A program made the position numbers and the translations under genes. DNA of 62,909 nucleotides. It comes from Isotricha intestinalis (Eukaryota > Ciliophora > Litostomatea > Vestibuliferida > Isotrichidae). This document shows, piece after piece, positions 151 through 62,705 of this stretch; the stretch's first letter is position 1; every line of letters starts with the position of its first letter. The DNA lies in assembly GCA_023807065.1 (NCBI GenBank), contig JAJJLU010000373.1:1-62909 (forward strand), in the 5' to 3' direction. The notes under the pieces are model-generated. The model saw only the letters and a program-made list of their open reading frames with translations, was not told the DNA's origin and did no database searches.

Positions 151-750
151 ATGGATGAAAACCACTTTAAAGAAACAATGAATTTAGTGTGTCTATAAAA
201 CATTAAATAGATATCACTTGGTTAATATTATTTCAAAATAAAATTTCCCAATAAATAAATTCATGAATGATATAGGATAACTTCAAATAGGAATTTCTGC
301 CAAAAATTGATAAAATAAACCCTTCAAATTTAAACCTAAATATAGAAGAACAACATTATAATTATTATAGATGTAAATATATGAATTTGAGAAATCTATA
401 CAAAAAAAAATATATTTTTAAAGGATTTTATCGAATTCGATATAGATGATATTTTATATATAAATTATCAGATTACTCAAAATGATAATAAATTTAGTTA
501 TTCATTGATTAGATTGTATTTTAGCTGTAATGTATAATAAACCATCATATTGTTTATTCTTTAATATGAAAATAATGTTAATTCTTTTATTAAATAAATT
601 GAAAATAATCACATCCAATATTAAAATTAAAAATGAAAAAATTAAAGTTAAAAATAATATTATGGAATAGAATTAGATGGATTCTTCTTGGAATATAAAT
701 TAAAGAATAATAATTATAGTTATAATTGAAATTTTTAAAAATATTCATCT
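151..750 (+). pseudogene. possible gene relic at left end
   Basis: No intact gene is visible in the first 849 bases. One frame starting at the ATG at 151 can be followed to the TGA near 748 without an indel, if in-frame TAA/TAG and a few TGA are read through. The part around 391-560 has Asp, Glu and Ser codons at a density more like the true genes than like random AT-rich DNA. The number of stops is no lower than chance for this composition, so this is the weakest of the relics. It could be plain intergenic DNA. No telomere repeat is present at position 1. Confidence 0.25.
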
Positions 751-849
751 ATATAAAAAATAAATCATAATTAATTATTTGTTTTACTTCTTATATTCCA
801 ATTTTTATTTAAAAATTAATTAAAAAAAGATTTAAAAAAAACTTACAAA

Positions 850-2343
850 TTAACCTAATTCACTTTCTGAAATTTTATTTTTGATATTATAATCAATAAT
901 TGGTATTATTACTTCTATACTTAATAATTTTTTCATATTTTCAAAAAATAAAAATAATAGTTCATATGTTCGAGAGCATTTTAAAATCCAAATTGGAAAA
1001 ATATATTCAAATACATAAAATTTAGATCTTTGCCTTTTTTGCATTTCTTGAAAAAAAGATAGGTTAAATTTTTTATTTATTCCAGTATAGTTATTTATGT
1101 ATATTTGTTTAGGAGGATTTAAAGAATTAAGAATATTAATTTTAGAACTTTTATCTAAATTTTTACCAAAACTAAATTTACAGGCTAAATTACTTTCATA
1201 AGTAAATTTCTTTATAATTTTATTTTTTTTAAAATTACCATTTTTTACAAATTCATCGCTTACAATCCTATTCATTAAATCACAAATAAAAGCTTTTTGA
1301 GATAAATAAACAGATAAATATTGAAAAATTTTTAAGATAATATCTAAAAATCCTCCAATATTACCTAAAACTTCTTGTATTGTCACATATTTTCTGACAT
1401 AATGAGTTTCCCTACAATAAAAAGTAATAAATATTTCTGTGAGAGAAGGATTATTTTTTGTATAATCTACATTTACTTTTTTATCAATAATATCAGGATA
1501 AATTAATTCAAATTCAAAAAATTTATATAATTTTCTTTTACTATAAAATATCCCTTGATCACTTTCATATACAGAAGGTGAAAAATAATAAAAATACCTT
1601 CTCAAATTATCAAAAGAAAGAGAGAAACCATCACTTCTAACAATTTCAATAATAGGATTATATTTATTATAATGATCAACAGAAAAAGAAAGATATAATA
1701 GACTTAAATATGTATTTTCAAAATATTTTAAAATTTCATCTTCACTTCTACATATAATATTAGAATCATTTTGACATTTATTTAATGATATTTTTAAAAA
1801 ACTAAATCCAACAGCAGAATCTCCAAATCTTCCACTTATTTTTAAATTTTGATTTGATTTAACACACATATAATTATTTATATTATAACCTTGTTCATTT
1901 AATTTTGTATTGAATTCAATATTTTTACATTCTTCTATTTCAATATTAGTTATTGTTGTTTGTAAAGTATGTTCTCCATTAATATCCACTGGAAAAGTAT
2001 CTTGCCGTTCAATTTTTAAATTTACTAATGTTGGTTCTAAATTTTTTGTTGTTCCATTTAAATCAGAAAACGAAAGTAATAAAGGAACATTTGAAAAATC
2101 TATTGAAGCTTCTCCACCAATTTGAACCATATTAGTGGTTATGGAAAATGAAGTATTATTAAATAATTGAAGAAAATATATTAATGAAACCCCAATTACA
2201 ATTATGATTGAAAATATGCTAAATAAAAAGCCTAAATTTGTATGATATATTTCTTCTTTTTTATATAAAAGATGAAAATCTACTCCATAAATATTTATTG
2301 ATTCAAATAATTTATTAATTTTTTTTAAAAATTTTTTAGACAT
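850..2343 (-). CDS. ciliate-type two-membrane-segment protein, copy A
   Basis: The protein has about 497 residues when started at the ATG at 2343. An upstream in-frame ATG at 2385 would add 14 residues, but the shorter form better matches the N-terminus of the paralogue at 53238-54746. Residues 39-60 form a strong hydrophobic membrane segment after a short cytosolic lead with the motif YHTNLG. A long non-cytosolic region follows, with spaced Cys residues and the motif LKISGRFGD followed by a SEDEI motif. A second hydrophobic region (IQEVLGNIGGFLDIILKIF) precedes a Lys-rich tail. This architecture is typical of expanded ciliate families of unknown function. Role is unknown; a surface or endomembrane location is inferred from the membrane segments only. 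Confidence 0.85.
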   Translation of the reverse strand: MSKKFLKKINKLFESINIYGVDFHLLYKKEEIYHTNLGFLFSIFSIIIVIGVSLIYFLQLFNNTSFSITTNMVQIGGEASIDFSNVPLLLSFSDLNGTTKNLEPTLVNLKIERQDTFPVDINGEHTLQTTITNIEIEECKNIEFNTKLNEQGYNINNYMCVKSNQNLKISGRFGDSAVGFSFLKISLNKCQNDSNIICRSEDEILKYFENTYLSLLYLSFSVDHYNKYNPIIEIVRSDGFSLSFDNLRRYFYYFSPSVYESDQGIFYSKRKLYKFFEFELIYPDIIDKKVNVDYTKNNPSLTEIFITFYCRETHYVRKYVTIQEVLGNIGGFLDIILKIFQYLSVYLSQKAFICDLMNRIVSDEFVKNGNFKKNKIIKKFTYESNLACKFSFGKNLDKSSKINILNSLNPPKQIYINNYTGINKKFNLSFFQEMQKRQRSKFYVFEYIFPIWILKCSRTYELLFLFFENMKKLLSIEVIIPIIDYNIKNKISESELG

Positions 2344-2469: not shown

Positions 2470-3359
2470 ATGTCTTCATTACCTCATCTAATAGAATTAA
2501 AAGAAATTCCCAAAGTGATAGAATCAGAAAATGTAGTTCTAATTCCAAAAGGAAATATAAGAGAAGCAATAATTCATGAAGAAAAATTAGATGAACAAAG
2601 TGGATAAATTCATGTATATATAACTTCAGTATATCATAATTGTGTAAAAGAATTGAAATTAAAATCAAAAGCAATTTTATAAAATATCAAAGAATGATTT
2701 ATCAGAAGAAGAATATATGAAAAATACAGATCCTAATTTTGAAAATGAAATAAGTGAAATTAATTTAGAAAAAAATGAAGAACCAGAAAGAAAGATATAA
2801 AAAATCCTAAAAAAGATTTATTTTATTCTGCTTTAAGTGTGCATTACTATCATCAACAATTCAAATATCATTTATAATAACAATAACAAAAGAATATCTT
2901 AATAAACCTCATTTAATAACAGAAGAACCTGAATTAATAACAATAAGATTATTAGCTTTTTTAACATTAACTTTCAAATTATTGATTGAATTAGGAAACG
3001 GAAGAAAAATAGTCACTCATGGAATTTATCAAAGTTTCTTATATATAAATAATAATAAAAGATTATTAATTATATTTATGGGAATAGTACAAATATTTAC
3101 TACTTTAAGTTGTTAATTTTGTTCAAGTGAATTAATAGTTCAAACTGAAAGTGTCATTAATTGTATTAAAGATTTTTCAACTTTAATTGTTTTAACTGAA
3201 ATTGATAATTGGATAGGAGATTATTTTTTAAACATCTGTATACAAATGCAAGTTTATACTAGTGATTATGTTTCTCAAATTTATATTTTAAGAAAAAAAG
3301 ATTATTATAGATATCATTTAAGTGATTTTTGTATTGATGCAACTGTTGTTGGACTTTAA
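2470..3359 (+). pseudogene. decayed multi-pass membrane protein gene
   Basis: From the ATG at 2470 a clear protein reading runs to a terminal TAA at 3357-3359, but it is broken. In-frame TAA codons occur at 2605-2607 and 3114-3116, and at least three one-base frame changes are needed (around 2680, 2800 and 2840). The C-terminal two thirds read as hydrophobic segments with motifs such as EEPELITIRLLAF and FSTLIVLTEIDNWIGDYF, which look like a ciliate family of multi-pass membrane proteins. Most Gln positions are still CAA, so decay seems recent. It lies head-to-head with the 850-2343 gene. An intron explanation was tested: no GT-AG pair removes the stops and frame changes together. Confidence 0.85.
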
Positions 3360-3594
3360 TTTTTTCTATTGTTCTTATTTATCAAAATATTATTTTTTTC
3401 TCATAAAAAATAAATTTAGGTTTATTTATCTTTTTTTTTATAAATATTAGGTTTTTCAATAATATAATATTAAATTATGTTTTTTAAATATATTTACTTT
3501 TAAAATAAAGGTTTAATTTATTTTTTTTTTTAATTTTTTTTAAAATTCACTTAGATATTAATATGTATTTAAATAAAATATTTATTTTTTTCTA

Positions 3595-4614
3595 ATGGAA
3601 AACCATAGAATAATAGATTTTGAAGAATTAGAAAATAAAATACAATTAAATATAGATTCTTTTAAATTATATCTTAATTCAGTTGGAGGTCATTCTCTTT
3701 TTATTGAAATATCAAGAAAATATTTAATTAAAAGTTCAAACGAAAGTGAAATTAATTTTTATTGTTTTATAAATCAAAATAAAAAAACTTTTCATGCAAA
3801 TACAATTCCTAATTTTAAAGGGGTTATTAGACAAAAAACAAAATATTTTAAATTAATAGAAAATTATGTTAATCAATGTAAAACTTTTTTTAGAAATTAT
3901 TTAAATGAAAATAAAATAAATGCAAAAGACATTGATATAGAAAAGGACATTAAATTTAATGAAATATTTAATTCATTTTTAAAAGAAAAAGATATTTATA
4001 CTATTTATGACTTAAATCCTTCTTTTAAAAAACTAAAAGAAAATTTAAATGGTTTTTCAAAAGAAAAATTAAAATGGATATTATTTTCTTTTGTAAAGTG
4101 GAGAGAAAATTTTTTAAAAAATGATTTTTTAGTTTTAGAAAATCTAACATATGAAATGCAAAGTCCTGCAATAATTGATATTAAATTAGGTTCTGCAAAA
4201 AAATTTTCTAAAGAAAATCATAAAGAAAAAACTTATGAAGGAGCTTCAAATAAAATTGGATGTAGAATTATGGGAATTCAAAAAGGAGAAATTTTTAAAA
4301 ATAGATATTATACTAGAAATTTAAGTGAAGAATATTTTCAAAAAGAAATTTTTGAATTTTTTAAAGACAAAAAAGAATTAGTTAAAAAAACTTTTGAAGA
4401 ATCTCAATATTTAATTAAAGAAGTAAAACAATTTGATATGGAATTTAAATATTCTTCTTTATTAATTGCTTATGATGATAAAGATGAAAGTATTAATGCA
4501 ATAAATTTAATAGATTTTTCCTTTTTTGAAAAAGGAACTAATACTAATGACTCTACTATTAATTTAATCAAATCTATTGAAAATTTTATTGAAATTTTGA
4601 AAAAAATAAGATAA
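3595..4614 (+). CDS. inositol polyphosphate kinase family protein
   Basis: The 339-residue protein carries the inositol polyphosphate kinase signature PxxxDxKxG as PAIIDIKLG, with Pro191, Asp195, Lys197 and Gly199. A conserved segment around YEGASNKIGCRIMG follows, and a C-terminal SSLLIAYD...IDFSFF block contains Asp307, the expected metal/ATP-binding acidic residue of the family. The family (IP3K, IPMK, IP6K) phosphorylates soluble inositol phosphates using ATP in cytosol or nucleus. Length is near that of compact IPMK/IP6K enzymes. Which inositol phosphate is used cannot be told from sequence. The gene uses a single exon and ends with TAA. Confidence 0.9.
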   Translation: MENHRIIDFEELENKIQLNIDSFKLYLNSVGGHSLFIEISRKYLIKSSNESEINFYCFINQNKKTFHANTIPNFKGVIRQKTKYFKLIENYVNQCKTFFRNYLNENKINAKDIDIEKDIKFNEIFNSFLKEKDIYTIYDLNPSFKKLKENLNGFSKEKLKWILFSFVKWRENFLKNDFLVLENLTYEMQSPAIIDIKLGSAKKFSKENHKEKTYEGASNKIGCRIMGIQKGEIFKNRYYTRNLSEEYFQKEIFEFFKDKKELVKKTFEESQYLIKEVKQFDMEFKYSSLLIAYDDKDESINAINLIDFSFFEKGTNTNDSTINLIKSIENFIEILKKIR

Positions 4615-9268: not shown

Positions 9269-9269
9269 A

Positions 9270-10258
9270 AACTGTTATTAAATGTAATTTTTATTTGGAT
9301 ATTTATCTTTAAAGTTTTATAAATTAATATTTTATTTTATATGAAAGTTTATATTAAAGAATATAAAATAATAAATTATAAATTCACATTTATTTTTTTA
9401 AGAGTTTTTTTTTTGTGTATATCAATTAATAGTTATAAAAGAAAAATTTTGAGATTATTATATCTTAATGAAATATTTCTATAGAATATAATTAATCACT
9501 CTTAAATTGAACTCAATTCTACCTTTTTTATAAATGTTTATTTTCCACATCTATTATTTATCATATTCTAAATTTTACTTTATTAATAAAATATTTATTT
9601 GTTAGAATAAAGTATTTATATAAATGTCATTTTTTAATGAATTTTTTTATGGATGTTATTTTAAAATTATGTTTGAATCAAAATGTTATTATTTAATACA
9701 TTATTTTTTTATAATGTTGTCTTTCACTATGATAAATTTCATTGAGATTAGGTAAAAATGTATTTTATTTTACAATGTCATGAATCACAATTTTTTCAAT
9801 TTTTAATTCAAGTTTTAATTGTATTTGAATCTTTTAAATTTAGATTTTAATGATTAATTTTTTTTTGTTTTATTTCTAACTTTTCAACAAATTCATTAAG
9901 ATACATTTTTTTTTATTTTTCTCATAATTTATTTTCATATAATCTTTTCTTTTATTGTAATTTCTCGATTTATCATTTTCCACATAATTATTTTTATTAA
10001 ATAAAAACAAAAAAATATTCAAGTCACTATTTAATGCCAAGGAGAAGGATAAATAAAATAATTTTTTTTTATATTTTTTGATTTTCCACTGAAATAAACT
10101 ACAAATTTTGTTCAATTTTTTTTTGTCATAGTTTTGTTTTATATTTTAGCTATTATGCTACTTTCATTACTCATTTTGTTTTCATTAATTCTATTAAAAT
10201 TTGATTTATTACTTATATTTAAATTCTCACAATTACCATTATTCCTTTGGGAATTCAT
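9270..10258 (-). pseudogene. decayed gene relic in the 9.3-10.4 kb gap
   Basis: Reading from an ATG at 10258 leftward gives protein-like stretches on the minus strand in changing frames: an Asn/Ser-rich start (10258-10150), a Lys-rich middle (10120-9890) and a well-formed segment around 9790-9690 containing IEKIVIHDIVK and FLPNLNEIYHSERQHYKK. In-frame TAA and TGA interrupt them and at least two frame changes are needed. The product is not recognised. An intact 79-codon frame at 9876-10115 lies inside this relic and is probably only a surviving piece of it. The rest of the gap (10259-10431) shows nothing. Confidence 0.45.
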
Positions 10259-11880: not shown

Positions 11881-12120
11881 ATGGAAAGATTTATTGGAGA
11901 AAATAAACAACAAGGTTCATTAAAATCTAAAATTAATTCATATATTGCAAAAAGTTTTAACATATAAAAGAAGATTCATAAATAATTTAACAACGAATTA
12001 ATAGCAAAAAAACTTTAGAAGAGAAAGAAAACCAATTATATTAGGAAAAGTTCATAAATATTTTAAAATTATTTGAATTAACATTTTTATACTATAAATT
12101 ATCTAAAGATGTATATATCA
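11881..12120 (+). pseudogene. short gene relic upstream of WD-repeat gene
   Basis: From an ATG at 11881 a protein-like frame begins with MERFIGENKQQGSLKSKIN and continues through in-frame TAA codons to an A7 run near 12007. There the reading moves to another frame, giving a Leu/Glu/Lys-rich segment that passes one TAG (EKFINILKLFELTFLYYKL near 12100). The stops fall where Gln would read well, and loss of one A in the homopolymer would explain the shift. The product is unknown. The preceding part of the gap (11530-11880) shows nothing. A 5' exon of the next gene was considered, but no splice pair joins the frames. Confidence 0.5.
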
Positions 12121-49939: not shown

Positions 49940-50959
49940 ATGGAAAATGAAAAAATAATAAAAAATGAAATGGCAAAATGTGAAAAAGATATGATAGTTT
50001 ATTTTACTTCTCATTATAATGAAAAAATAGAAGATAATAAAATTATAATCAATGATAATTTTGAAGTATTGGAAAAAATAGGAGAAGGTTCTTATTGGAA
50101 AGTAATTAAAGTAAAAAGAAAATTACTTTCTTCAAAAGGAGAAGTATTAGAAAATAATTATTATGTTTTTAAAAAAGGAGTTTTAAATAAAAAAATAATA
50201 AATTTTAATGAAAAAGATAAAGAATGTAGAATAGGAGTAAAAGAATATAAAATTCTAAAAGAAATATGTCATCCAAATATAGCAAGATTATATGAATGTA
50301 TTATTGATAATACTTTAAATAAAATTATTTTAGTTATGGAATACTGTGATTTAGGATCTTTAATGATTTCAAAAAGAAAAGAAAACACTGAATATTATGA
50401 ATATAATAATAAAGTTATGAAATATTTATGGAAAAAATATGAAGGAGAAAAGAAAATTCCAGAAAATTTTTCTTATGAATATAATGAACAGAAAGAATTT
50501 TTTGAAAAAGTGTCTTATGAAATGTTAATTCAATTAATTTCTGCTTTAAAATATTTAAAAAATAAATTAATAGCTCATTTAGATATTAAACCTGAAAATA
50601 TTTTAATTAAAACTGTTGATAATGAAGATAATGATAATTTTATGAAATTAAGTGATTTTTCAATTTCAAAAAAAATTCCTTCAGAAAATTCAAAAATTGA
50701 ATTTTTTGGAGGAACTCCAATTTATAATCCTCCTGAAATTGAAAATGAGGAAGAAATAGATCCTTTTAAATATGATATTTACACTTTAGGAGCAACAATT
50801 TTTACTTTTCTATTTAATAAATTTAATTTTTCTGAAATTAAAAATCTTCAAAATGTTATATCCAATCAAAAATTATATAAGATTTTATACATAACTCTTG
50901 AACCTGATTTTTCCATCCGTGCTTCAATAAATCAAATTGAAGAAATTATATTGAATTAA
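49940..50959 (+). CDS. divergent protein kinase with altered DFG
   Basis: The 339-residue protein is a kinase domain of the CaMKK/LKB1-like style. The glycine loop reads IGEGSYWKV, the ATP-binding Lys is in VFKKG (Lys78 or Lys79), and the catalytic loop is HLDIKPENIL with Asp215 present. The DFG motif is DFS: Asp239 is kept but Gly is replaced by Ser241. The APE-like motif reads YNPPEIE. A 55-residue acidic/aromatic insertion lies between the hinge and the catalytic loop. Asp and Lys residues are retained, so activity is possible, but the DFS change and HLD catalytic loop make weak or pseudokinase activity plausible. The partner and substrate are unknown. It starts 105 bases after the preceding relic. 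Confidence 0.85.
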   Translation: MENEKIIKNEMAKCEKDMIVYFTSHYNEKIEDNKIIINDNFEVLEKIGEGSYWKVIKVKRKLLSSKGEVLENNYYVFKKGVLNKKIINFNEKDKECRIGVKEYKILKEICHPNIARLYECIIDNTLNKIILVMEYCDLGSLMISKRKENTEYYEYNNKVMKYLWKKYEGEKKIPENFSYEYNEQKEFFEKVSYEMLIQLISALKYLKNKLIAHLDIKPENILIKTVDNEDNDNFMKLSDFSISKKIPSENSKIEFFGGTPIYNPPEIENEEEIDPFKYDIYTLGATIFTFLFNKFNFSEIKNLQNVISNQKLYKILYITLEPDFSIRASINQIEEIILN

Positions 50960-51116
50960 TAAAATAATTTTGATTATATTTTTCAAATTGTTTTTATGTA
51001 AAATAAAATTATTTGTTTATTTTATTTTATTTTATTATAATTAAATAAATATAATACATTTCAAATAACTTAATATTTTATTATAATAGTATAAATATTA
51101 AAAAATAATTAATATA

Positions 51117-51383
51117 ATGGACACTGAAAGTTCTTTATGTAATGCCCCGAAAATTCCATTTAGAATTCCTATTAGAAAACCATCTAAACTTAATTTAAAT
51201 AAATATTCATTATTTAATTCAATAGAAGGTGAAAATGTAATGAATAACAATTTATATCAAGAAAACTCAATTTCCACTGATGTTTCTGAAAATGATGTAA
51301 ATAAAAATTATGAATCAGACAGTAGTTTTGAAGAGGAAATTGAATGTGATTTAATTAGTATTCTTCAAATATTAAAAGAATAA
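51117..51383 (+). CDS. small acidic protein of unknown function
   Basis: The 88-residue frame starts MDTESSLCNAPKIPFRIP and ends with an acidic helix containing SSFEEEIECDLISILQILK. The N-terminal part is basic with Pro (RIPIRKPSK) and the middle is Asn/Ser-rich. The composition, with Pro, Cys and clustered Glu, is gene-like rather than random. No domain is recognised. It could be a short regulatory protein or the intact 5' part of a gene whose remainder decayed, since a relic follows at 51435. Confidence 0.5.
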   Translation: MDTESSLCNAPKIPFRIPIRKPSKLNLNKYSLFNSIEGENVMNNNLYQENSISTDVSENDVNKNYESDSSFEEEIECDLISILQILKE

Positions 51384-51434
51384 AAAATTCACTTTTATTC
51401 GATAAAAAAATAAATATGTTATTTATAATTAATT

Positions 51435-51790
51435 TGTACTTAACAATTGATTTAGATCTTATAAAGAAATAAAAAAGTATAATTAAAGGTTATTTAGTTA
51501 TGTATGGAAATTTATATAATTTTAATATTAATTTGTTAAAAAGAATAATACAAAAAACTGAAAAAAAATATATTTCATTTTGCCCAATCTGAGAAAAAAA
51601 ATAGATTCTATATTAGAAATATTTAAAGAGCATTTTTGTTCTATATCCTTGAATAAAGAAAAATTGTTTAACTCTTTGATTTCTTAAAATAAATATAATA
51701 TTTCCTTTAAAAACAAGATTTTGAATTAGAAAACTTCTCACTATCACACACACTAAATTATTTTATTTTCTTTTATAATTTTTTTCATGG
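51435..51790 (+). pseudogene. gene relic between small ORF and START gene
   Basis: One frame reads LTIDLDLIKK and then, past a TAA, SIIKGYLVMYGNLYNFNINL and IIQKTEKKYISFCPI. A one-base change at a TGA leads into SEKKNRFYIRNI and, past several TAA, FELENFSLSHTLNYF. The stops are nearly all TAA. The reading is protein-like but the family is unknown. The last 100 bases before 51901 are leader-like A/T sequence. Confidence 0.45.
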
Positions 51791-51900
51791 TTTGAAATAA
51801 TCAAATAAACTTTAATTTTTAAAATTTTTTTGAGTCAAATACTTTTTGCCTCCATAATTAATATTTAAAATGAAATTAATAAAATTATTATTTAATTTCA

Positions 51901-52515
51901 ATGGATGACGTCAATGAAAAACAGAGTGTAATAGAAGCAATAAATAAAAGATATCCAGAATTAGAAAATTGGTTAAACAGACCAAATTGGAAAGATTATG
52001 ACAAAGATGATAAAATAGGATATAAAGCATGGTATTGTGATGAAGAAGGAACAGGTTTTAGAAGTATAAAATCTCAAATAATCATAAAAAAATCAATGAA
52101 TGAAATATTTGATTATGTTGCAGATATAAACAATAAACCTAAATATGATCATTCTTTAGATCACTGTAAAATAGTAAATAAATTTGATGAAAATTATAGA
52201 ATTGATTATTATAATTATAAAGGAGCTTTTCTTATTTCAAATAGAGATTTTTATGTTGCTGTTTATTATAAAAGAGGAGATGATTTTTCTGAAATGTTTT
52301 GTACTAATTATTCTAACCCTAAATATCCAGAAATCAAAAAAGTTGTTAGAGCTGAATTAATTTATGCTGGATTCCAATATAAAAAAGTAGAAGAAGGAAT
52401 ACTTGTCACTTATTATACTCAAGGAGATATGAAATTAAATCAAATGCTTGTTAATACTACTCTCTCAGAAGTTGCTAAACAAGTTGTTTATCTTAAGAAA
52501 CTTTTGGAATCTTAA
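51901..52515 (+). CDS. START-domain lipid-binding protein
   Basis: The 204-residue protein is a single START/SRPBCC fold. Landmarks are YKAWYCDEEGTGFRSIKSQI, then IIIKKSMNEIFDYVADINNK, the turn KYDHSLDHCKIV, the strand pair RIDYYNYKGAFLISNRDFYV, and a long C-terminal helix from LNQMLVNTTLSEVAKQ to the end. The NRDFY segment after the beta-strands is typical of START proteins such as STARD2/STARD10-like phospholipid carriers. The chain has no membrane segment or signal peptide, so a cytosolic lipid carrier is likely. The ligand is unknown. It is one of three lipid-transfer-type genes in the window. Confidence 0.9.
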   Translation: MDDVNEKQSVIEAINKRYPELENWLNRPNWKDYDKDDKIGYKAWYCDEEGTGFRSIKSQIIIKKSMNEIFDYVADINNKPKYDHSLDHCKIVNKFDENYRIDYYNYKGAFLISNRDFYVAVYYKRGDDFSEMFCTNYSNPKYPEIKKVVRAELIYAGFQYKKVEEGILVTYYTQGDMKLNQMLVNTTLSEVAKQVVYLKKLLES

Positions 52516-52773
52516 TTTTGTTATAGAATAATAACACATTTTTTAAACTTATAATAATTTTCTTTAAAAATTTTTACTTTATATTATGAAATATATGAAA
52601 ACATATATTTTTAAAATATTTATATTAAAAAAAATAAAAAAATTTAAAAACTTAAAAAAATCCAAAAAAACAAATCCTACCTTAAAAAAATAATAATCAA
52701 AAAAAAATTAAAACAAAACGAAGAAAAAAATTATAAAAACGGAAATCATAAAATTTAATAAATAAAAAAAAAA

Positions 52774-52965
52774 ATGAATCCATTCTTTAGACCACCACCA
52801 ATGATGGGACCAAGACCTTATATGGGACCTCCTCCAATGATGAGACCTCCTCCAATGATGGGCCCTCCTCCAATGATGGGACCAAGACCTTTTATGGGAC
52901 CTCCTCCAATGATGGGACCAAGGCCTTTTATGGGACCTCCTCCGATGGGACCTAGGTTTTTTTAA
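52774..52965 (+). CDS. Pro/Met/Gly-rich repeat micropeptide
   Basis: The 63-residue frame consists almost wholly of tandem Met-Gly-Pro-Pro-Pro-Met and Met-Gly-Pro-Arg-Pro-Phe units. It has about eight short blocks, such as PPPMMGPRPFMGPPPMMGPR. It starts with MNPFFRPPPMMGPRPYMGPP and ends MGPRFF. The DNA is far more GC-rich than its surroundings because Pro and Gly need it. The ATG lies behind a long A-rich leader like those of the epimerase and reductase genes, and the stop is TAA. No signal peptide is seen. Such low-complexity repeats occur as tails of RNA-binding proteins, but here the repeat is the whole protein. The function is unknown. Confidence 0.65.
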   Translation: MNPFFRPPPMMGPRPYMGPPPMMRPPPMMGPPPMMGPRPFMGPPPMMGPRPFMGPPPMGPRFF

Positions 52966-53237
52966 ATAAATATTATTAGAGATTATATATGTATATTATA
53001 ATTTTACTTTTCTTCTTAATTTTGTTGGATTTTTTGAAATTTTTTTTTATCTTTTGTTTTTTTCTTGTTTTTTATGTGTATTGGGATTTTATAAGAATTT
53101 ATTAGGAAATAAATGATAATGGTTTTTTATTTAAGATACTTTTATGGAATATTTTATATTATTTTTAATTTTTATTTAGATTATTATTTAACTAATAATT
53201 ATTGATCACGTATTTGATTTTATAAAATCAGTATATA

Positions 53238-54746
53238 TCAAAAAATTTTTTTTTGTATTTCTTTTGTAAAATTATTTAATCTTTCAGAATTTATATGTAT
53301 TGTTTCAATACTTATATTTATATAAATTTCTTCAATTAATTTCCTTAATAGATATAAGTTAGAATTCTTTTTTATTAATAATTTTGGAATAAAATATTCG
53401 ATATTTTTTAACTTAAAATTATTCTCATTAACTTTATTCAGAAATTTCTTCCAATACTTTTTATTAAGTTTATCACTTGGAATTAGAGTAGTTTGCTTCT
53501 TAAAAATGATTAATTTATTTGGGGTATTAATAGGAAAATTCTTTTGAAAAATTCTTTGATTTTTTTCTGAACATAATAAGGTTTTACTCTTTAACTCAGA
53601 ATAAGATATATTTCTCTTTTCATTATCTATTCTTTTTAAATCATTAAAATTATTTTTATATATATGATTTTTTTGATGTTTAATTTGAAAAAAAACATTA
53701 TTAACAATATCTAACATTTTAAATTTTCTAATAAAAAATTGTAAAATTAATGTTAAAATTTCATATACTAATTTTATCCAAGTAGTAATATTTGCCAATA
53801 TATCTTTAATTTTATAATATTCTCTTTTATAAATAAAAGTATCTTCAGTTGAAAATAATGTTAAGGAAAACAAAGTTTGAGACGAATTATTTTCATTTAC
53901 ATGTAAAAGTTCAAAATCAGAATTTTTATAATTATATTGATAAAAATTATATATAGTTTTATTCTTAAAAATTAATCCATTATCAGATTCATATTTTACT
54001 TTTGTATAAGAAATATAATAAGATTTAATAAGAAAAGGAGAAACAGGAAAAAATTCTGCTTTTTTTTTTAATTTAATTGGATTTGAATAATCATAATTAT
54101 CAATTATTTTTTCTAAAAAACCAATAACAATAAAACTATTATTTAATTTGTTATAAATTTCTTCCTCAGAATCGCATAGAGAATTAACTTTTTGATTACA
54201 AGTCTTTATTTCTAAATTTAAATTACTATAATTTATATCTCCATAATGTCCTCTAATTTTCAAACTTTTATTGTATGAAATACATAAAAAATTATAGGTA
54301 TTAGGTGAATTATCAAAATAATTTATATATCTAATAAATTTTTCATCATTATGACATTTAATGAGTGAAATCTTAGTTTTATTATGAAAATATTTCATAT
54401 GTTTTGGATCATTATTTCTCTCTTCATATGTTAATTCTAAAGTAAATAATTTTGGATTTTGTTCAATAAATTGACCTTTACTATTAACAAATCCAACTAA
54501 AATCAGTTCTTCATTTAATCTAAATTCTTCATTATTATTTATTTCAGTACTTTGTGAAAAATGAAAATACTCTCTTTTTAAAATAGTATTGAAAAATATG
54601 AAAATTATAAAAAAAAATATTAAAAACGAAATTATACCAAAAATTGAGCCAAAATTTGAATGGTAAACTTTTTCTTTTTTAAACCTTAAAGAAAATGGTA
54701 TTGAATAAATATCTAAATTTAAATATAATTCATTCATGAATGACAT
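53238..54746 (-). CDS. ciliate-type two-membrane-segment protein, copy B
   Basis: The 502-residue protein is a paralogue of the 850-2343 gene. Both start with a short cytosolic lead (here VYHSNFG), then a membrane segment (residues about 34-55, IFGIISFLIFFFIIFIFFNT). The long non-cytosolic region shares LKIRGHYGD and, after paired Cys residues, SEEEI. The second hydrophobic region here reads WIKLVYEILTLILQFFIRKF, followed by a Lys/Asn-rich cytosolic tail of about 150 residues. The Gly-Gly pair in the second segment of copy A (NIGGF) is missing here. The family is abundant in ciliates; its function is unknown. Confidence 0.85.
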   Translation of the reverse strand: MSFMNELYLNLDIYSIPFSLRFKKEKVYHSNFGSIFGIISFLIFFFIIFIFFNTILKREYFHFSQSTEINNNEEFRLNEELILVGFVNSKGQFIEQNPKLFTLELTYEERNNDPKHMKYFHNKTKISLIKCHNDEKFIRYINYFDNSPNTYNFLCISYNKSLKIRGHYGDINYSNLNLEIKTCNQKVNSLCDSEEEIYNKLNNSFIVIGFLEKIIDNYDYSNPIKLKKKAEFFPVSPFLIKSYYISYTKVKYESDNGLIFKNKTIYNFYQYNYKNSDFELLHVNENNSSQTLFSLTLFSTEDTFIYKREYYKIKDILANITTWIKLVYEILTLILQFFIRKFKMLDIVNNVFFQIKHQKNHIYKNNFNDLKRIDNEKRNISYSELKSKTLLCSEKNQRIFQKNFPINTPNKLIIFKKQTTLIPSDKLNKKYWKKFLNKVNENNFKLKNIEYFIPKLLIKKNSNLYLLRKLIEEIYINISIETIHINSERLNNFTKEIQKKIF

Positions 54747-54849
54747 TTATTTTCTGATTAATATAATAAAATAATGTTATAATAAATTAAGATATTAAAA
54801 TTCTTTTTATACACTTCTACTATCTATTAATTTTATTATTCAAAAAAAT

Positions 54850-55460
54850 AGAAATTAGATTACATCTTCTTTTAACTCAAATATAATTGTTGTTAAACTT
54901 TTAAATGGAAATATTTCATTATTAGATTTTTATTTATCATTTCAAAATATGAATTGTGATAGTTTGATTGGGAAATAAATTCTCAAAAAAAATAAAAATT
55001 TTTCTCAAAATTCTTCTTAAATGGATTAAACTAAAAAATGAAAATTAAAGAAAAAAATACTCTTCTTTTTTGAATTAGTTAATAATTGTTCAATAATATA
55101 AAATATGAATTTCAATTTTTGAGATTTTTAAAATTATTATATATAATAAAAAATTTATCAAATCTTCAAAATTTATCTTTTATGAATTTTTCTTTTTGAA
55201 ATAAGTAAATGAAAATGTGAAATTAAATAAAAAAAGTAATGATATAGTATTATAAATTAGAATCTTTAGGAAGATAAATAAAATGAAATTTTTTTTTCCA
55301 ATAGAATTAGATTAGGTTATCAATTATTAATTCAATTTTATATTTTAATCAATAATTTAAATTTAGTAAATAAAGATTGTAACACTGATAATATTATTCT
55401 ATTATTATCTTACAATAATTTTTATTCAAAACATACAATATTTATATGTTTTTAATGAAA
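54850..55460 (+). pseudogene. gene relic in the 54.7-55.8 kb gap
   Basis: The plus strand reads IVVKLLNGNISLLDFYLSFQ and NMNCDSLIGK near 54890-54975, then through TAA codons to KILFFFELVNNCSII near 55050. Further on, VNENVKLNKKSNDIV near 55210 is followed after frame changes by IRLGYQLLIQFYILINNLNL and VNKDCNTDNIILLLSYNNF, ending at a TAA near 55455. Both TAA and TGA interrupt the reading and at least three frame changes are needed. Cys, Gly and Asp content argues for a former gene. The family is unknown. 55461-55754 shows nothing more. Confidence 0.5.
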
Positions 55461-55754
55461 TTTAAAAAATACTTTTTATAATTCATATTCAAAAAATTTT
55501 GTTCTCTAAGCAAAAAAGAAAGATTATTTAAATTTAATTTATTTTAAGATTCAGGCTTTTCTATAATAATTAATATTAATTTATTGCAAATAATTGTAAA
55601 TAATATATATTTTTAATTTTATTTTTTATTTGTATGTTGAATTTTCATTGCTTATATTTAAATTTTAAAAATTATAATAAATTTATTAAAACCTATATTT
55701 ATCTTTCAAATATATTTATATCGAATAACATGATATATTTTATTAAAGAAAATA

Positions 55755-56342
55755 TTATTCAATTGTATCATATTTTTGTGAATTAATTTTATTATTTCTT
55801 GAAAATTTAAAGATTTTATTATTTTTAATTTTTAATTTAATCCTATCATTTATTTTCAATTTGTTTTTTAATTGTTTTTGAATGAAATGATGCTCATGAT
55901 TTAAATTAGTAGGGTAATTATTTATAAATTTTAAAATACATTTTTCATTGATTCCAGTATTATTATGTTTATGATGTTGTTCAAATTCTAAACTTTTTAA
56001 ATTCAATTTTTTTAATTTTTTTTTTTCTAATTGTTTGATTTTAAAATCATTAAAAATAGTATCAAAAGGATTTTCAAATAATTCTTTATTAATTTTTGAT
56101 ATAACTTCTCTTTTTCTTTGTGTTAAAGGAATTCTTTTTATTTGAGAAGTCTCAGGAGCTAAATAAGGTAATTCTAAAGCCCTAATTTCATGATAAGAAT
56201 TTATAAAAGAAGAATTATTTCTTAATATTTCATTTTGAAATGGAATTTTATATTTTGTTTCACTTTTTGAATTTGTTTTTTCTTTAATTAATATTTTATC
56301 TAATAAATTTTCCTTTTTTTTAATTGGTAATAAATATTTCAA
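55755..56342 (-). CDS. basic uncharacterised protein lacking an ATG start
   Basis: The frame from 56342 down to the TAA encodes 195 basic residues. It has a patch that looks conserved around residues 55-95: ALELPYLAPETSQIKRIPLT and KREVISKINKELFENPFD. There is no ATG: the frame opens from TTG at 56340-56342, extends in frame without Met to 56381 and meets a TAA at 56382-56384. No Met occurs inside the protein. No upstream GT-AG pair joins an ATG-containing exon. Options are a non-ATG start, a mutated start in a young pseudogene, an unusual intron or a sequence error. The product would be soluble; its function is unknown. Confidence 0.55.
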   Translation of the reverse strand: MKYLLPIKKKENLLDKILIKEKTNSKSETKYKIPFQNEILRNNSSFINSYHEIRALELPYLAPETSQIKRIPLTQRKREVISKINKELFENPFDTIFNDFKIKQLEKKKLKKLNLKSLEFEQHHKHNNTGINEKCILKFINNYPTNLNHEHHFIQKQLKNKLKINDRIKLKIKNNKIFKFSRNNKINSQKYDTIE

Positions 56343-56543
56343 ACTTTTTGGATGGGTTATAACTGAATTTTTCGTTGCTGTTTAAAAATAAATTAAAATT
56401 AAATTGTTAATTTGAAATTAGTCTTAATGGGAATAAAAATTTTATGTTTTTTTTTTATTTAAATAAATATATATGTTATTTCCATAATTTTAGAAAATAA
56501 TTGAAATATAATATAAAACTTATTTTTTAATAAAAATAAAAAA

Positions 56544-57161
56544 ATGAAAGATGATTTTTGTGTATCATTAAAAAAAATACTAGATAACACAGATTATAAA
56601 GAAGATATAAATCATTTTAAAGAAGATATCCATAATTTAAATAATTTAATTGAAAAAGGATTATGCTTTTTATCTCCAATTAAATTAAATGAAAATGCTC
56701 TCAATAAAACAAATAATTTAAACAACGAGTCTGAAATAAAAGAAAAATCAAATAAAAAAAAAAAGAAATATATACTACATTCATATTCAATAAAAAGAAA
56801 AATTTTAAAAGAATCAGAATTATATACAATAAAAGAATTAGTATTAAAATATAAAATTCCATATTCAACAATTTCAAGATGGGTTGTGAAAGGAATTGGA
56901 AAAAAGACAAGTATTCAAAAAATAAATAAAATTATTCCTAAAAAAAGGTTAAAAAGAATTAAAAATTTAAGTAATGAAACAATTGATAGAGCTTTAGAAA
57001 TATATAATAAATATCCTCCTGGTACTATAACAAGAAGTTTTTTTAGAAGAGAAGTTTTGAAAATTGCTGAAGAACAAAATTTTCAAGCTTCTTATGGTTG
57101 GTTAGCAAGATTTGAAAAAAAAAATGATTTAAAGTTTTTAATGAAAAAAAACAAAAATTAA
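56544..57161 (+). CDS. CENP-B/Tigger-type DNA-binding protein
   Basis: The 205-residue protein has two helix-turn-helix parts like the DNA-binding half of CENP-B and pogo/Tigger transposases. The first, residues about 80-125, includes YTIKELVLKYKIPYSTISRW, the Psq-like HTH. The second, about 145-205, includes EIYNKYPPGTITRSFFRREV and ASYGWLARFEKKNDLKFLMK, matching the CENP-B/Tc5 pattern that ends in G-W-L-x-R-F. No DDE transposase domain follows. It is therefore a domesticated or stand-alone DNA-binding protein, likely nuclear. The N-terminal 75 residues are acidic then Lys-rich. In ciliates such proteins could act on repeat-derived DNA, but that is speculative. Confidence 0.8.
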   Translation: MKDDFCVSLKKILDNTDYKEDINHFKEDIHNLNNLIEKGLCFLSPIKLNENALNKTNNLNNESEIKEKSNKKKKKYILHSYSIKRKILKESELYTIKELVLKYKIPYSTISRWVVKGIGKKTSIQKINKIIPKKRLKRIKNLSNETIDRALEIYNKYPPGTITRSFFRREVLKIAEEQNFQASYGWLARFEKKNDLKFLMKKNKN

Positions 57162-57261
57162 GAAAAATATTTATATATTTATATATTTTATATGGTAAAA
57201 ATATTAAATTATTATTTTTAATTTTTAGGGTTTTAATTACAATTATTTTTTCAAAAATTTA

Positions 57262-57987
57262 TTAAATATTTTGAGCATTAATAATAAAATTATTTGAATT
57301 ATATAAATTTTTTGATAATTTTCTATTATCATCTAAACCTAAATCTTTTTTTAACATAAACACTTGTTTAAATGCAGGAATTACTGCTGATGACATTTCT
57401 TTATGAAGTAATTTTAAATTTGCTTTAAAATTATATTTGGGAGAACTTTGTTTATTTATTTTATCAATTGTATCAAATATAGGATACATTATACTTTGAG
57501 GATTATTTAATATTTTACTTTTCTTTGTAAATTTTGGTTTTGTTTTTATATTTATATTTATATTTGGTAAATCACTTTTTATTCTAAAAGTATTAAAACT
57601 TTTTTTATTTAATTTTTTTGAAATATTTGATAATGTTTGAAAATTCTTATCTAATGAATTCTTTGATAATTTGTCTTTTATTTTTTTTGATATTAAAATT
57701 ATTGATAAATCTTTATTTGTCTTATTTATATTTGAATGTGATTTTTCTTTTGACTTTTCTTGAGAAAATTCAATTGTTTTAAGTAAGTGTTTATTTATTG
57801 AGTAATTAGATAAAGTTTCATTTTTTCTATAAGAATCTAAATATGTTTTTGTGTTTTCTAAAAATTCAGGTTTTTTAAGATTAATATAAGTTCTTTTATT
57901 TCTATAACTATCACTGTTATATGAAGAAATTGTAAATTCAAAAGGAATATTTTTATTATAATTTAAAAAATTATTAGAAAAAGACAT
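57262..57987 (-). CDS. uncharacterised Lys/Ser/Asn-rich protein
   Basis: The 241-residue protein starts MSFSNNFLNYNKNIPFEFTI and is mostly Lys/Ser/Asn-rich and probably disordered. A more ordered C-terminal segment at about residues 160-225 contains QSIMYPIFDTIDKINKQSSP, then NLKLLHKEMSSAVIPAFKQV and LKKDLGLDDNRKL. I do not recognise a family. No signal peptide or membrane segment is present. It converges with the CENP-B-type gene across 100 bases and is divergent from the calpain-like gene across 180 bases. Confidence 0.7.
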   Translation of the reverse strand: MSFSNNFLNYNKNIPFEFTISSYNSDSYRNKRTYINLKKPEFLENTKTYLDSYRKNETLSNYSINKHLLKTIEFSQEKSKEKSHSNINKTNKDLSIILISKKIKDKLSKNSLDKNFQTLSNISKKLNKKSFNTFRIKSDLPNININIKTKPKFTKKSKILNNPQSIMYPIFDTIDKINKQSSPKYNFKANLKLLHKEMSSAVIPAFKQVFMLKKDLGLDDNRKLSKNLYNSNNFIINAQNI

Positions 57988-58167
57988 TTTCTTTAATATT
58001 AAAAAATATCATGATAATTATTTATTTTTTGATAACATAAATCAAAATAATATATTAAATGATGATAAAAAAAAGTAAGAAAACAAGTATATTTACAATA
58101 TAAAAAATAATTAAAAACCCCTAAAATAATATAAATTAACAAATAAAAATCATAATTTTTATAAAAA

Positions 58168-61100
58168 ATGAGCAAGGAATCGGACGATGAACTAGATTTT
58201 ACTGAGGAAGATTTATCAAAACTAAAAATCTTATCAGACTTCCTTTTTTTTGATCAATATAAGAATGTAGCATCATATCCTCGTTTCCAGCAATGTTTCG
58301 CACCATTTGCAAAAGAAAGAAAAATGAAGCTTTTTCCAATATTCAAGGAATTATGTGGAGAAAAGAGAAAATATGTAACATTAGGTCGTTTAATTCAATC
58401 ATTAATAAATTCAAGAAATTCTGAAGAAAATGAAACTAAAGAGTTTTTTGATATGTTATTAAATGAAGATATGATAAAAGAAGATCAGGAAGAAACAGGA
58501 CCAGAATATGAACATGCAATTCATTATTCAACAAGACAAGGAAAATTACGTCATTTTATATCTAAAATATGTGTAATCACAGATGAATCTGGAGAAATAA
58601 TAAAAGGATTAAGAATATATTATGATGATTTTTTTAAAAATGATTTATTTTTAAATAAAAGAGGAGAAAATTATAAAATTGCATTAGAAATGACATTAAA
58701 TGGAGATTTAACAAAAGGTCAAATTGATGGTTTTCCAGATATGAATACAAAAGATGGTATAACACATATATATGGAACATATACTGATCATATAACTTTT
58801 ATAGGATTTAAAGCAAGATCTGGTAAAACATATTTTTATGGAAAACCTGAAGGAAAACCTTTTATTTATGGTGCTATTGGTAAACATATGAAAACTATAT
58901 CTTGTCAAGTTAATGAAGGTAAATTATGTGCTATTGAACCTGGATTTGTTGATGTTGTTAGAAAAAATACATATGTTGATAAAACTATGGATGATGTTGA
59001 TGAATTATTAAATGATTGTAATGAATGTGTTTTAGAAGAAAGTTCTTTAGAAAAAATTAAAGATCCTGATGAATTAGATAAAAATATTAAAACTCCTTGT
59101 ATACCTGATGATTATTTTTTTGATAAAAATTATGATGATCCAATTAAAGGAACTGATATTAAAGAAATTTTAGAAGGAATGGAAGATGATGATCCAGCTA
59201 TTGCAAAAAAGGAAAAAAAAGAAGAATTTGAATTTGATGAAGATAAATTACTTGAAGAAGCAGAAATGTTTTCTAAATATAAAAATTTAAGAGAAAATTT
59301 AGAAAAAGAAAAAGAAGATATGGTGTTAAATGGTGATTTTGATGTTCCTGTAGAAGATCCAAATGGAAATTATGAAAGTGGAGATCCTACTTCAAATTTA
59401 AAAGGTGCTACTCCTAAAACTTTTATTAATAATCCTATTAATTATGATAATTTAGTTGATGATTTTGGAAATATGATTGAAAAGGATTTTCCAAAAGAAG
59501 AAGTTAAAAAAGTTGAAGAAGAAGAAAAAGAAGAAAATTGGCAAAGTATTATTGAAGGGAAATTAAAAGGAAGAGTTATTGTTCCAAATAAAAAAGAAGA
59601 TATTGTTAAATTTTTCCATGATATTAAACAAAGTTATTTTACTACTCCAATTGACAAAATTTCTGATGATGAAGAAGCTCAATTAATAAATAATATTAAT
59701 CCTGAAATCAAAGAAAAATTAAAATCAATGAGTAAAAAAGCAAAAGAAACAGTGAAAAAAAAAGAAAAAAGAGTACAAGAAAATTGGGTTAAATTAACTA
59801 GGAAATATCCTTTACTTAATGGAGTATTTTTAATACAAACAATAGGTAGTGTTATTAAAGCAATTAATGTTATGAAAAATAAGAAAAAAACTGATGAAAT
59901 GACTCAAGAAGAAAAAGTAAGAATATATAGAATGCTAAAAATAAATCGTCCTATTGTTAAAATGTTATCTAAAGCTCATATGGAAAGTTTAAGAAGAAAA
60001 CAAGAAGAAGAAGAATTAGAAAAGCAAAAAGAAGATTTAATTAATGATGAATTACCTGATCCTAATGAATTAAGTGCAATTGAAAAAAATAGACAAAAAG
60101 AAATTAATGATAAAGCTGATAATGCTTTTAAAGTTAAACCTAAAGTTTTAAATAATTCTGATTTACCTAAAATTGAATCTAAATTAAAAAAATTATATGA
60201 AATGAAAGAAAAAGAAGGTGATAAAGAAGATAAAGCAAAAAATCAAATTTTAGATGATTATATTGAAGAACTTCAAAGAGATAAAAATGCAATATTAGAT
60301 TCATTAGGAAAAAAAGCAAGTAAAAAAATATTAGAAAAAATTCAAACTAAATTTTCTGATTTACAGCAAAAATATGAGAAAGAAAGAAAAATATTAGAAT
60401 TAGCAGATATAAAAAAATTAAAAAAAAAGAAAGAATCAGATGCTGAAGCATTTATCAAAAAAGTAAAATCAAAATTAGTTTCATTAAAGGAAAAAGATAT
60501 ACCTTCAGATATAAAAATATTTAAAAATCAAAAAATTCCAAAAGACAAAATTTTTTTTGATGATGAATTTAAACCATTAAAAGAGAGTTTATGCCCATTA
60601 AAAGAAAATGGAGAATGGAAAATTCCAGAAGGATTAATAAAAAAAGATTTAAAAGGATGGGAAAATTTTAAATGGACTCCAGCAGAGCAAATATTACAAA
60701 CAGATAATTTTCAAGTTATAAATCAATCAATAAAGCCAGAAAATATAATTCAAGGAGATTTAGGAAATTGTTATTTTTTAACAGCAATAGCAGCATTATG
60801 TAAGCATCAAAATCTAATAGAAAAATTATTTGTAATAAAAGAAAAATCAAAAGAACATTGTTATGGAGTATATATTAAAATAAGTGGAATATGGAGATTA
60901 GTATTATTAGATGATTTTATTCCCTTTTTTACTGATTCTGAAGGTCATAAAAGATTTGTTTTTTCAAGTTCATATAATCCAGAATTATGGGTTGCTTTAA
61001 TTGAAAAAACTTGGGCTAAAATATCTGGTTGTTATGCACTTGCAATAGAAGGTTCCACTGCAGAAGTTTTTGATGCTTTTTCTGATGGAACTACTGAAAC

Positions 61101-62187
61101 TTTCAATGTATTTGAAGATGAAAAAGATGAAATATATGATATATTTAAAAATGGATATGAAGATAATGATTGTATGACTGTCAAAGCCAGTGATGATCCT
61201 TCTATTTGTGATGATGGATTAGTTCCTAGAAGAAATTATCTTGTTGAAGAAGTTAAAGAAACTCCCAAAGGAGATAAATTAATTAGATTAAGAAATTTAT
61301 GGGGAAATGGAGATGAATGGAATGGAAATTGGAGTAATCAAAGTAAGAAATGGACTAATAAACTTGCTGAGGAATTTAATGTTAATGAAGAAAATGCTTT
61401 AAATGAAGGTAAATTTTGGATTTCTCTTGATGATTTTGTAAAATATTTTAAAGAAATAACTATTTGTCATATTAATGAAGATTATGAAAATGTTAATATT
61501 AAAGTTCATAAAGAAGATGTTACTAATGATGATTCTCCTCATGTAACTAAAATGATTGTTCATAATGATGATAGTACAGTATATGTAAAATTAAATGAAA
61601 AAAGTACAAGAGTTCCAATGAAAGATGGTACAATATCTAAGCCTGCTTTAAATTATATAATAATAACTGATTCTGATGGTAATTTTATTTCTGGTTCTCA
61701 TATTGAAAATGCATATAATGCAACTATGGCAAATGTAAATAAAGGAACTTATTTTATTTTAACTGATGAAAATCATAGATTTATTACTAAAAATCAATCT
61801 TATGTAATTAATGTTTCTAGTAATGAAAAAGTTGATTTAGAAGAAGATGAAAAGATTGATGGAAAAGAATTATTACGAAGTGCTGTTACTGATTATATGA
61901 AATTATACATTAATCCTAAAAAATATAAAGGAGGAAGATTACATTTAATGAATATTAGTAATGAATTACCTTTTCTTGGAATTTTGTTTGATAATGAAAA
62001 AGGAAAAGAAGATATTAAATTGAAATTTGAAATGGAAAAAATCAATGATGAAGGTGTTGAATATTATTTAGAAGAAAAAAATAAACCTATTATTAAGAAA
62101 GTTAAAGTTGGAGAAAATTATTTGTTCCTTGGTTATCCACAATCTTATAATGCTGATTTTAAATATTCCTTTAAAGCTACTAAATGA
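58168..62187 (+). CDS. large calpain-like protein with altered catalytic triad
   Basis: In this 1339-residue protein the N-terminal part (about 1-290) includes an ordered region with EF-hand-like and strand-rich segments (LNGDLTKGQIDGFPDMNTKD). A long acidic, coiled-coil-rich middle follows (about 345-790). The CysPc domain runs from about 795 to 1085. The nucleophile Cys868 is present in QGDLGNCYFLTAIAAL and Asn1043 in LRNLWGNG. The expected catalytic His (family motif GLVPGHAY) is replaced: here the sequence is GLVPRRNYLV, with Arg1022 at the His position. The C-terminus (about 1105-1339) holds two C2-like/calpain beta domains. It is likely proteolytically inactive and may be a calcium-dependent scaffold. 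Ends with TGA; last intact gene before the telomere. Confidence 0.93.
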   Translation: MSKESDDELDFTEEDLSKLKILSDFLFFDQYKNVASYPRFQQCFAPFAKERKMKLFPIFKELCGEKRKYVTLGRLIQSLINSRNSEENETKEFFDMLLNEDMIKEDQEETGPEYEHAIHYSTRQGKLRHFISKICVITDESGEIIKGLRIYYDDFFKNDLFLNKRGENYKIALEMTLNGDLTKGQIDGFPDMNTKDGITHIYGTYTDHITFIGFKARSGKTYFYGKPEGKPFIYGAIGKHMKTISCQVNEGKLCAIEPGFVDVVRKNTYVDKTMDDVDELLNDCNECVLEESSLEKIKDPDELDKNIKTPCIPDDYFFDKNYDDPIKGTDIKEILEGMEDDDPAIAKKEKKEEFEFDEDKLLEEAEMFSKYKNLRENLEKEKEDMVLNGDFDVPVEDPNGNYESGDPTSNLKGATPKTFINNPINYDNLVDDFGNMIEKDFPKEEVKKVEEEEKEENWQSIIEGKLKGRVIVPNKKEDIVKFFHDIKQSYFTTPIDKISDDEEAQLINNINPEIKEKLKSMSKKAKETVKKKEKRVQENWVKLTRKYPLLNGVFLIQTIGSVIKAINVMKNKKKTDEMTQEEKVRIYRMLKINRPIVKMLSKAHMESLRRKQEEEELEKQKEDLINDELPDPNELSAIEKNRQKEINDKADNAFKVKPKVLNNSDLPKIESKLKKLYEMKEKEGDKEDKAKNQILDDYIEELQRDKNAILDSLGKKASKKILEKIQTKFSDLQQKYEKERKILELADIKKLKKKKESDAEAFIKKVKSKLVSLKEKDIPSDIKIFKNQKIPKDKIFFDDEFKPLKESLCPLKENGEWKIPEGLIKKDLKGWENFKWTPAEQILQTDNFQVINQSIKPENIIQGDLGNCYFLTAIAALCKHQNLIEKLFVIKEKSKEHCYGVYIKISGIWRLVLLDDFIPFFTDSEGHKRFVFSSSYNPELWVALIEKTWAKISGCYALAIEGSTAEVFDAFSDGTTETFNVFEDEKDEIYDIFKNGYEDNDCMTVKASDDPSICDDGLVPRRNYLVEEVKETPKGDKLIRLRNLWGNGDEWNGNWSNQSKKWTNKLAEEFNVNEENALNEGKFWISLDDFVKYFKEITICHINEDYENVNIKVHKEDVTNDDSPHVTKMIVHNDDSTVYVKLNEKSTRVPMKDGTISKPALNYIIITDSDGNFISGSHIENAYNATMANVNKGTYFILTDENHRFITKNQSYVINVSSNEKVDLEEDEKIDGKELLRSAVTDYMKLYINPKKYKGGRLHLMNISNELPFLGILFDNEKGKEDIKLKFEMEKINDEGVEYYLEEKNKPIIKKVKVGENYLFLGYPQSYNADFKYSFKATK

Positions 62188-62499
62188 TTTTTATCATTGA
62201 TTTATTTTTGATTTTTATTTAATACTTCAATAAGAATTTTTATTATATTTATTTTTTTTTTCATGAATATTTAATTTAATATTAAAATTGAGAAAATCAG
62301 AATACTGATAAAAAATATTATCAAATATGGAGAAAAATCAACATTTAATTTAATTAATATTATTATTATTTTGAATATTTAAAAAAGGATTTTTTGGTGT
62401 TCCATAAATCTTCCAAAATAAAATATTTTATTTAAAAATATTAAAAAAGGTATATATTTATACTAATTTATTATAAAATTTTTCTTTTATTTGAATTAT

Positions 62500-62705
62500 T
62501 TATGAATTAATTATTTGATGATAGTAAATTAAGTGAAAGTATTGATACTTCAGATATTAAGAATGTTTTATTGGTTTATTGAGAATTACTGGGAATAGAA
62601 GTTGAAACTCAAAAAAAATTTTACACAATTATCAATTGTAAATTTGTTTTTTATTTGATATAAATTATATTAATTAATAATATATTAATATACTGGAATA
62701 CCATT
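62500..62705 (+). pseudogene. subtelomeric gene relic
   Basis: Between the calpain-like gene and the telomere one frame reads LFDDSKLSESIDTSDIKNVL, then through a TGA to ELLGIEVETQKKFYTIINC and FVFYLI. The TGA is in the context LLVY-stop-ELL, where Trp would fit. The Asp, Glu and Ser density is far above chance for this A/T content. The reading ends near 62705. The family is unknown. The rest of the subtelomere (62188-62499 and 62706-62864) is A/T-rich with no feature. Confidence 0.5.

Follow-up and report, generated by a model that had tools for sequence, protein, structure and literature searches.

The DNA between the genes of the present ciliate contig contains protein-like readings interrupted by in-frame TAA, TAG and TGA codons, which raises the question of whether they are the remains of dead genes or belong to genes in which stop codons are read as glutamine (Gln) and tryptophan (Trp). 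The window, i.e. the whole stretch of DNA that was analysed, is the complete contig C173, 62,909 nucleotides long, from an assembly of 57.3 Mb in 2153 contigs. A preliminary description of it had placed gene relics in nearly every gap of more than 300 bases and their stops at Gln- and Trp-like positions, proposing a large pseudogene population or, alternatively, a gene subset with a stop-ambiguous code. Here, we argue that the relics are very probably decaying copies of duplicated genes in a genome that uses the standard code, and that their stops are ordinary mutations.

The contig and its genes

The GC content of the window is about 18%, and its right end is telomeric:

62865-62909, + strand: end of the contig, telomeric (GGGGATT)n including variants (e.g. 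GGGTATT)

Contigs C168 and C119 each carry this repeat at one end, too. Since the reverse complement of (GGGGATT)n is (CCCCAAT)n, the repeat is of the telomere type reported for Muniziella cunhai, a gut litostome with the standard code (PMC11316547). The set of 32 open reading frames (ORFs) considered, drawn from 36 listed minus four overlapping ones, ends with TAA in 25 cases, TGA in five and TAG in two; for the litostome Litonotus, the standard code and 85% UAA are reported (PMC4967479). The present genome thus resembles Muniziella and Litonotus in being AT-rich, in its standard code and in its TAA-dominated stops, yet it differs from Muniziella in the GC content of the window (about 18% versus about 26%) and in having some contigs of more than 100 kb. 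By telomere and stop use, the window is probably the end of a macronuclear chromosome from a ciliate that uses the standard code, probably a gut litostome. At the opposite end, positions 1-207 share 99% identity with an end of C1737, which marks an assembly break or a repeat.

Pfam families found in the window include kinases, calcium-dependent protein kinases (CDPK), calpain, MORN repeats and inositol polyphosphate kinase, among others, and an Rfam scan of the window at gathering thresholds gave no match. The CDPK family is large, with at least 84 CDPK-like places in this genome; nearly all CDPK homologues matched by search are metagenome proteins without a species name.

Coding-like sequence in the gaps

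With a codon score in which stops are nearly neutral, 11 gap segments scored above 15, compared with none in each of five first-order simulations. When each gap of at least 300 bases was set against 200 second-order simulations, 9 of 21 reached p ≤ 0.01, and for the remaining 12 the codon statistic was not significant at 0.01. In the gap at 1-849, which had been described as containing the first relic (from position 151), p was 0.378 and the read-through matched only itself and the C1737 end. Some significant gaps contain no relic: one holds a small intact ORF (51117-51383), another a proline-rich small ORF near 52780, a third the beginning of the gene at 45391-47394, whose frame is split, and a further one probably represents the 5' portion of the gene at 13566-15533, with a candidate intron of 26 nt. 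The relics and related features discussed below are the following:

2470-3360, + strand: relic of a gene for a 319-aa protein, family not assigned; intact copy at C1223:27401-28360
3595-4614, + strand: intact inositol polyphosphate kinase gene (Pfam PF03770)
9631-10243, - strand: probable relic, p=0.010; 9729-9939 matches C987 DNA at 74%
42233-43121, - strand: relic; intact homologue in a 1082-aa open frame, C1237:7376-8251, and in one of 1095 aa at C820
45391-47394, + strand: gene read as three ORFs, with two frame changes by eye; the C477 paralogue has an open 660-aa frame (72% DNA identity)
49104-49939, + strand: probable relic, p=0.005; DNA paralogue at C325:32544-33581, 66-78% identity
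55044-55501, + strand: relic; intact homologue in a 1785-aa open frame, C325:19114-19320
62493-62618, + strand: coding-like fragment near the telomere, with one TAA and one TGA, p=0.010

Three of the 21 gaps hold a relic for which another contig of the assembly has an intact homologue, namely C1223, C1237 and C325. The relic at 42233-43121 (gap p=0.005) is 38, 57 and 61% identical, by segment, to its C1237 homologue and 33% to that of C820. The relic at 55044-55501 is 49% identical to the C325 protein (E 4.4e-6) and matches C325 DNA over 55044-55215 (71%) and 55286-55501 (78%), while the codon statistic of its gap is not significant (p=0.318). Protein searches gave nothing but self-matches for 49104-49939 and for 62493-62618, the latter with a TAA and a TGA that would read naturally as Gln and Trp; no intact homologue was found for 9631-10243. 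The gene at 45391-47394 is either a young pseudogene or an assembly error. Overall, the protein queries taken from the gaps comprised 27 of 47 listed segments and gave five non-self matches among 31, and a search of the window gaps for relics of the window's own ORFs gave no match at 1e-3.

The proposed abundance of relics thus survives only in part. The gaps do exceed simulated sequence in coding-like content, partly broken by stops, but more than half of the long gaps show no significant signal; likewise, the relics behind the supposed large pseudogene population are real, but rarer than claimed.

A relic and its intact copy

Inside the window, the residue-level comparison of stops and frameshifts concerns one relic, that at 2470-3360, which is 81% identical in DNA to its intact C1223 copy. 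The frameshift-tolerant alignment of the two (310 columns, 83% identity) contains five frameshifts and two true-frame stops, both of which stand in place of TAT (Tyr). Among 13 aligned sequences, namely the intact C1223 copy and 12 of 17 homologues (one of them 99% identical to that copy), Tyr occupies the first stop column in 13 and the second in 10, and Gln occupies either column in none. Another stop of this relic, which precedes 'NIKE' and had appeared Gln-like, was discarded, for it is out of frame after a shift and the true frame reads Phe-Tyr-Lys.

The neighbouring kinase gene is intact in the window at 3595-4614. On C1223 it is reduced to a remnant (L028:8538-8811) in which residues 3-30 and 215-277 abut, with two stops, both at Lys, and one frameshift. 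The loss between the window and C1223 is reciprocal: the gene for the 319-aa protein is dead in the window, the kinase gene on C1223. Constraint is relaxed in both dead copies, the pN/pS ratio being 0.49 (at pS 0.156) in the window relic and 0.81 (at pS near 0.16) in the kinase remnant, as compared with 0.20 for the intact pair at pS 0.183. In nine intact pairs of at least 79% identity the ratio is 0.10-0.38; distant intact pairs reach 0.7, and the ratio is informative at like distance only.

Residues under the stops

Broken copies and intact paralogues were compared over 331 kb of the window and further genome sequence, and stops were counted in 11 broken copies with at least 50% identity (4373 codon columns); the copies outside the window were found mostly via CDPK loci and do not constitute a random sample. 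The 34 stops fall on 13 residue types (Leu 5, Glu 5, Tyr 4, Ile 3, Gly 3, Thr 2, Trp 2, Ser 2, Gln 2, Phe 2, Lys 2, Ala 1 and Cys 1). Plain substitution, modelled base by base with the rates of the same alignments, would place 3.6 of 34 stops at Gln and 1.4 at Trp, against two and two observed; the total predicted by the model is 171 stops, and its proportions only were used. Gln columns are still Gln in 117 of 166 cases and Trp columns still Trp in 25 of 29, with two stops in each.

Without the two Leu stops in a probable intron (the C425 copy) and without the doubtful locus L032, 32 stops in nine copies remain, again with two at Gln and two at Trp, and copies with at least 75% identity, the C425 copy aside, carry eight stops, none of them at Gln or Trp. 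Of the 34 stops, 24, including all four at Gln or Trp, belong to two older copies, L022 and the L027 second gene, whose alignments, at 51% identity each, are less certain. Seven alignments below 50% identity were excluded; two of them contain neither stop nor frameshift and one a single frameshift, while the other four have 34 stops, three at Gln and none at Trp. Also excluded were an unbroken 100% match due to the overlap of L037 and L039, and L039 itself, which is the same stretch as L037.

TAA accounts for 18 of the 34 stops, TAG for nine and TGA for seven; composition alone, at about 18% GC, makes TAA the commonest and TAG about as frequent as TGA. Raw transversions outnumber transitions (1389 versus 794) across the 11 comparisons. 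The stops are therefore not concentrated at Gln and Trp positions as first described, nor does the cause then suggested, i.e. C-to-T and G-to-A transitions placing stops there, agree with transversions in excess and with stops at Tyr, Leu, Glu, Lys, Ile, Gly and other residues.

Frameshifts and introns

The 11 copies contain 37 frameshifts. A run of at least six equal bases is present in 7 of the 37 contexts, compared with 16% of random 23-mers from intact genes; shifts had been said to occur often at A or T runs, but no enrichment is seen, and homopolymer hot spots were dismissed as their source.

It is improbable that errors of sequencing or assembly in otherwise intact genes produced many of the breaks. 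Such errors would account for copies broken by frameshifts alone, namely L017 (one shift, pN/pS 0.29) and the first gene of L027 (three shifts, 0.21), both with ratios as low as those of intact genes, and for the window gene at 45391-47394 with its two shifts; L017 and the first gene of L027 may be very young pseudogenes or assembly errors. Against errors as a general cause speak the lack of concentration of frameshifts at long homopolymers and the stops and raised pN/pS of two of the copies, the window relic and the kinase remnant on C1223. L032, which has no stop and just one shift, located where the sequence end is divergent, is doubtful as a broken copy.

Short introns could also give live genes a broken look, and candidates were noted in the window:

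15617-15642, - strand: candidate GT-AG intron of 26 nt, which would join an upstream exon to the gene at 13566-15533
16299-16325, + strand: candidate GT-AG intron of 27 nt; the C425 paralogue has 30 nt with two in-frame TAA

The first of these (candidates, including that of C425, being 26-30 nt long) probably explains one significant gap. As an account of the relics in general, however, live intron-bearing genes misread as dead ones are very improbable. An alignment that allows for splicing placed no intron in the window relic, nor in any other copy with at least 75% identity, and their breaks persisted; introns were accordingly rejected as an explanation of the broken frames in the best relics. 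The intron proposals in poorer alignments look spurious.

Genetic code

The 32 window ORFs use CAA and CAG, although the choice of ORFs is itself stop-free. Of the 84 CDPK places, 78 lack an in-frame stop (these 84 being the best-scored of 1591 first-look candidates, and as such biased towards good copies). Judging by these places, TAA and TAG do not encode Gln in conserved genes, as they would under the ciliate nuclear code (table 6), and stops do not align to Gln and Trp, as they would under a code of the Condylostoma type.

That a subset of genes reads stops as Gln and Trp, with position-dependent termination as in Condylostoma, is accordingly a most improbable reading. In a few fragments (e.g. 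62493-62618), Gln at TAA and Trp at TGA would make a natural reading, and no eRF1 with both domains was found in the genome search: its N-terminal family was matched at two places, C269:37176-37493, which has two TGA inside and is possibly a broken or partial eRF1, and C962, the only place with the second domain, which, going by its sequence, we take to be pelota. For the traced relics, however, such recoding is contradicted by the stops themselves, which are not enriched at Gln or Trp and, in the relic at 2470-3360, stand where most homologues have Tyr; in addition, many frameshifts accompany the stops, Gln columns stay CAA or CAG, and the CDPK places are overwhelmingly stop-free. A tRNA pattern search, in the 17 of 21 matches examined, revealed two tRNA-Trp(CCA) only; the control pattern missed the normal tRNA-Gln, hence the search is blind to it.

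The in-frame TAA, TAG and TGA within protein-like sequence do recall the ambiguous codes of Condylostoma and Parduczia, yet in the present genome such stops show no Gln or Trp enrichment, are accompanied by frameshifts, and do not occur in most of the CDPK members scored. What stands of the first interpretation is the pseudogene nature of the traced relics, which have intact homologues elsewhere and frameshifts and, in the best pair, relaxed constraint. The claimed new case of an unusual genetic code falls, and a known process, the decay of duplicated genes, takes its place.

Duplicated blocks and their age

Parts of the window recur, inverted and in the same order, on other contigs:

18453-43121: inverted colinear region with C1237:7376-30596, by DNA and protein matches
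18496-20487, + strand: intact gene at the edge of the C1237 block; C1237 copy (L035) with 87% DNA and 80% protein identity
48711-62207: inverted colinear region with C325:14413-33663, 66-89% DNA identity over 13.5 kb

The DNA comparison with the genome covered 1-40000 and 42910-62909, and each time 39 of 1266-2059 candidates were scored. The C1237 block spans about 25 kb, with DNA matches at 18.5-26.3 and 38.1-40.0 kb (69-87% identity) and an unmatched middle of 11.8 kb. The intact homologue of the relic at 42233-43121 lies on C1237 where the block order predicts, and the edge gene's copy on C1237 is broken by one stop, at Glu, and by one frameshift. Fragments within 11950-14147 match C1237:982-1587 on the other strand, outside the block order, and several short weak C1237 matches occur elsewhere too; with C325, a single match, short and weak, departs from the order. 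C1223 matches the window over neighbouring pieces. Colinear paralogous blocks, as expected of ohnologs, are thus present with C1237, C325 and C1223.

The two C1223 pairs have synonymous distances of 0.18 and 0.19, and the C1237 edge gene one of 0.23. Outside the window, contigs C954 and C1038 share three neighbouring genes: the CDPK pair is intact, with a distance of 0.21, and the other two, with distances of 0.34 and 0.63, are broken on C954. Intact pairs elsewhere lie at about 0.33-0.7. The ages of the blocks are suggestive of one recent episode, short of proof of a whole-genome duplication.

The blocks would also be explained by a second related species, or a diverged haplotype, within the same assembly, a source that we consider unlikely but far from negligible: the DNA identity of 66-89% would fit a related species too, and the assembly carries no stated completeness or contamination value. 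Set against this, the older paralogues at about 0.33-0.7 imply that the genome has duplicates anyway. Such a mixture competes as an origin of the blocks, not of the relics, whose interpretation as decayed duplicates is independent of it.

Under the favoured reading, parts of the genome exist as colinear duplicated blocks, which would derive from a large-scale event; one copy of some genes then very probably lost selection and decayed by point mutations and indels while its twin stayed intact, the decay in one case being reciprocal between blocks. The relic stops are very probably ordinary loss-of-function mutations that struck any codon, with a bias from the AT-rich composition, and are read as neither Gln nor Trp, the relics presumably being untranslated. 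That this event was a recent whole-genome duplication (synonymous distance about 0.2) in a litostome-type gut ciliate with the standard code, followed by ongoing gene loss, reciprocal between blocks, is a tentative and rather doubtful proposal, made less probable by the two further C954/C1038 genes at 0.34 and 0.63. No genome duplication in a litostome or rumen ciliate is reported in the titles and abstract openings of the papers listed.

The closest known system is that of the Paramecium ohnologs and recent pseudogenes, which likewise comprises colinear paralogous macronuclear blocks with one copy intact and the other decaying; unlike in Paramecium, the present genome belongs to another ciliate group (Litostomatea, judging by telomere and code), uses the standard code, and has its blocks known from a few contigs. 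Of some interest is the block duplication, apparently recent, in a lineage resembling litostomes; should the blocks turn out to span the whole genome, they would offer another ciliate, beside Paramecium, for tracing how genes are lost after duplication.

Two minor observations concern the interior of the blocks. The unmatched middle of the C1237 block (26344-38127 versus C1237:11161-21257) is similarly long in the window and on C1237, but lacks DNA matches in order. In the C325 block, the stretch 55928-58075, which has no C325 match, includes an ORF (56544-57161) with a weak Tc5 transposase-like DNA-binding match.
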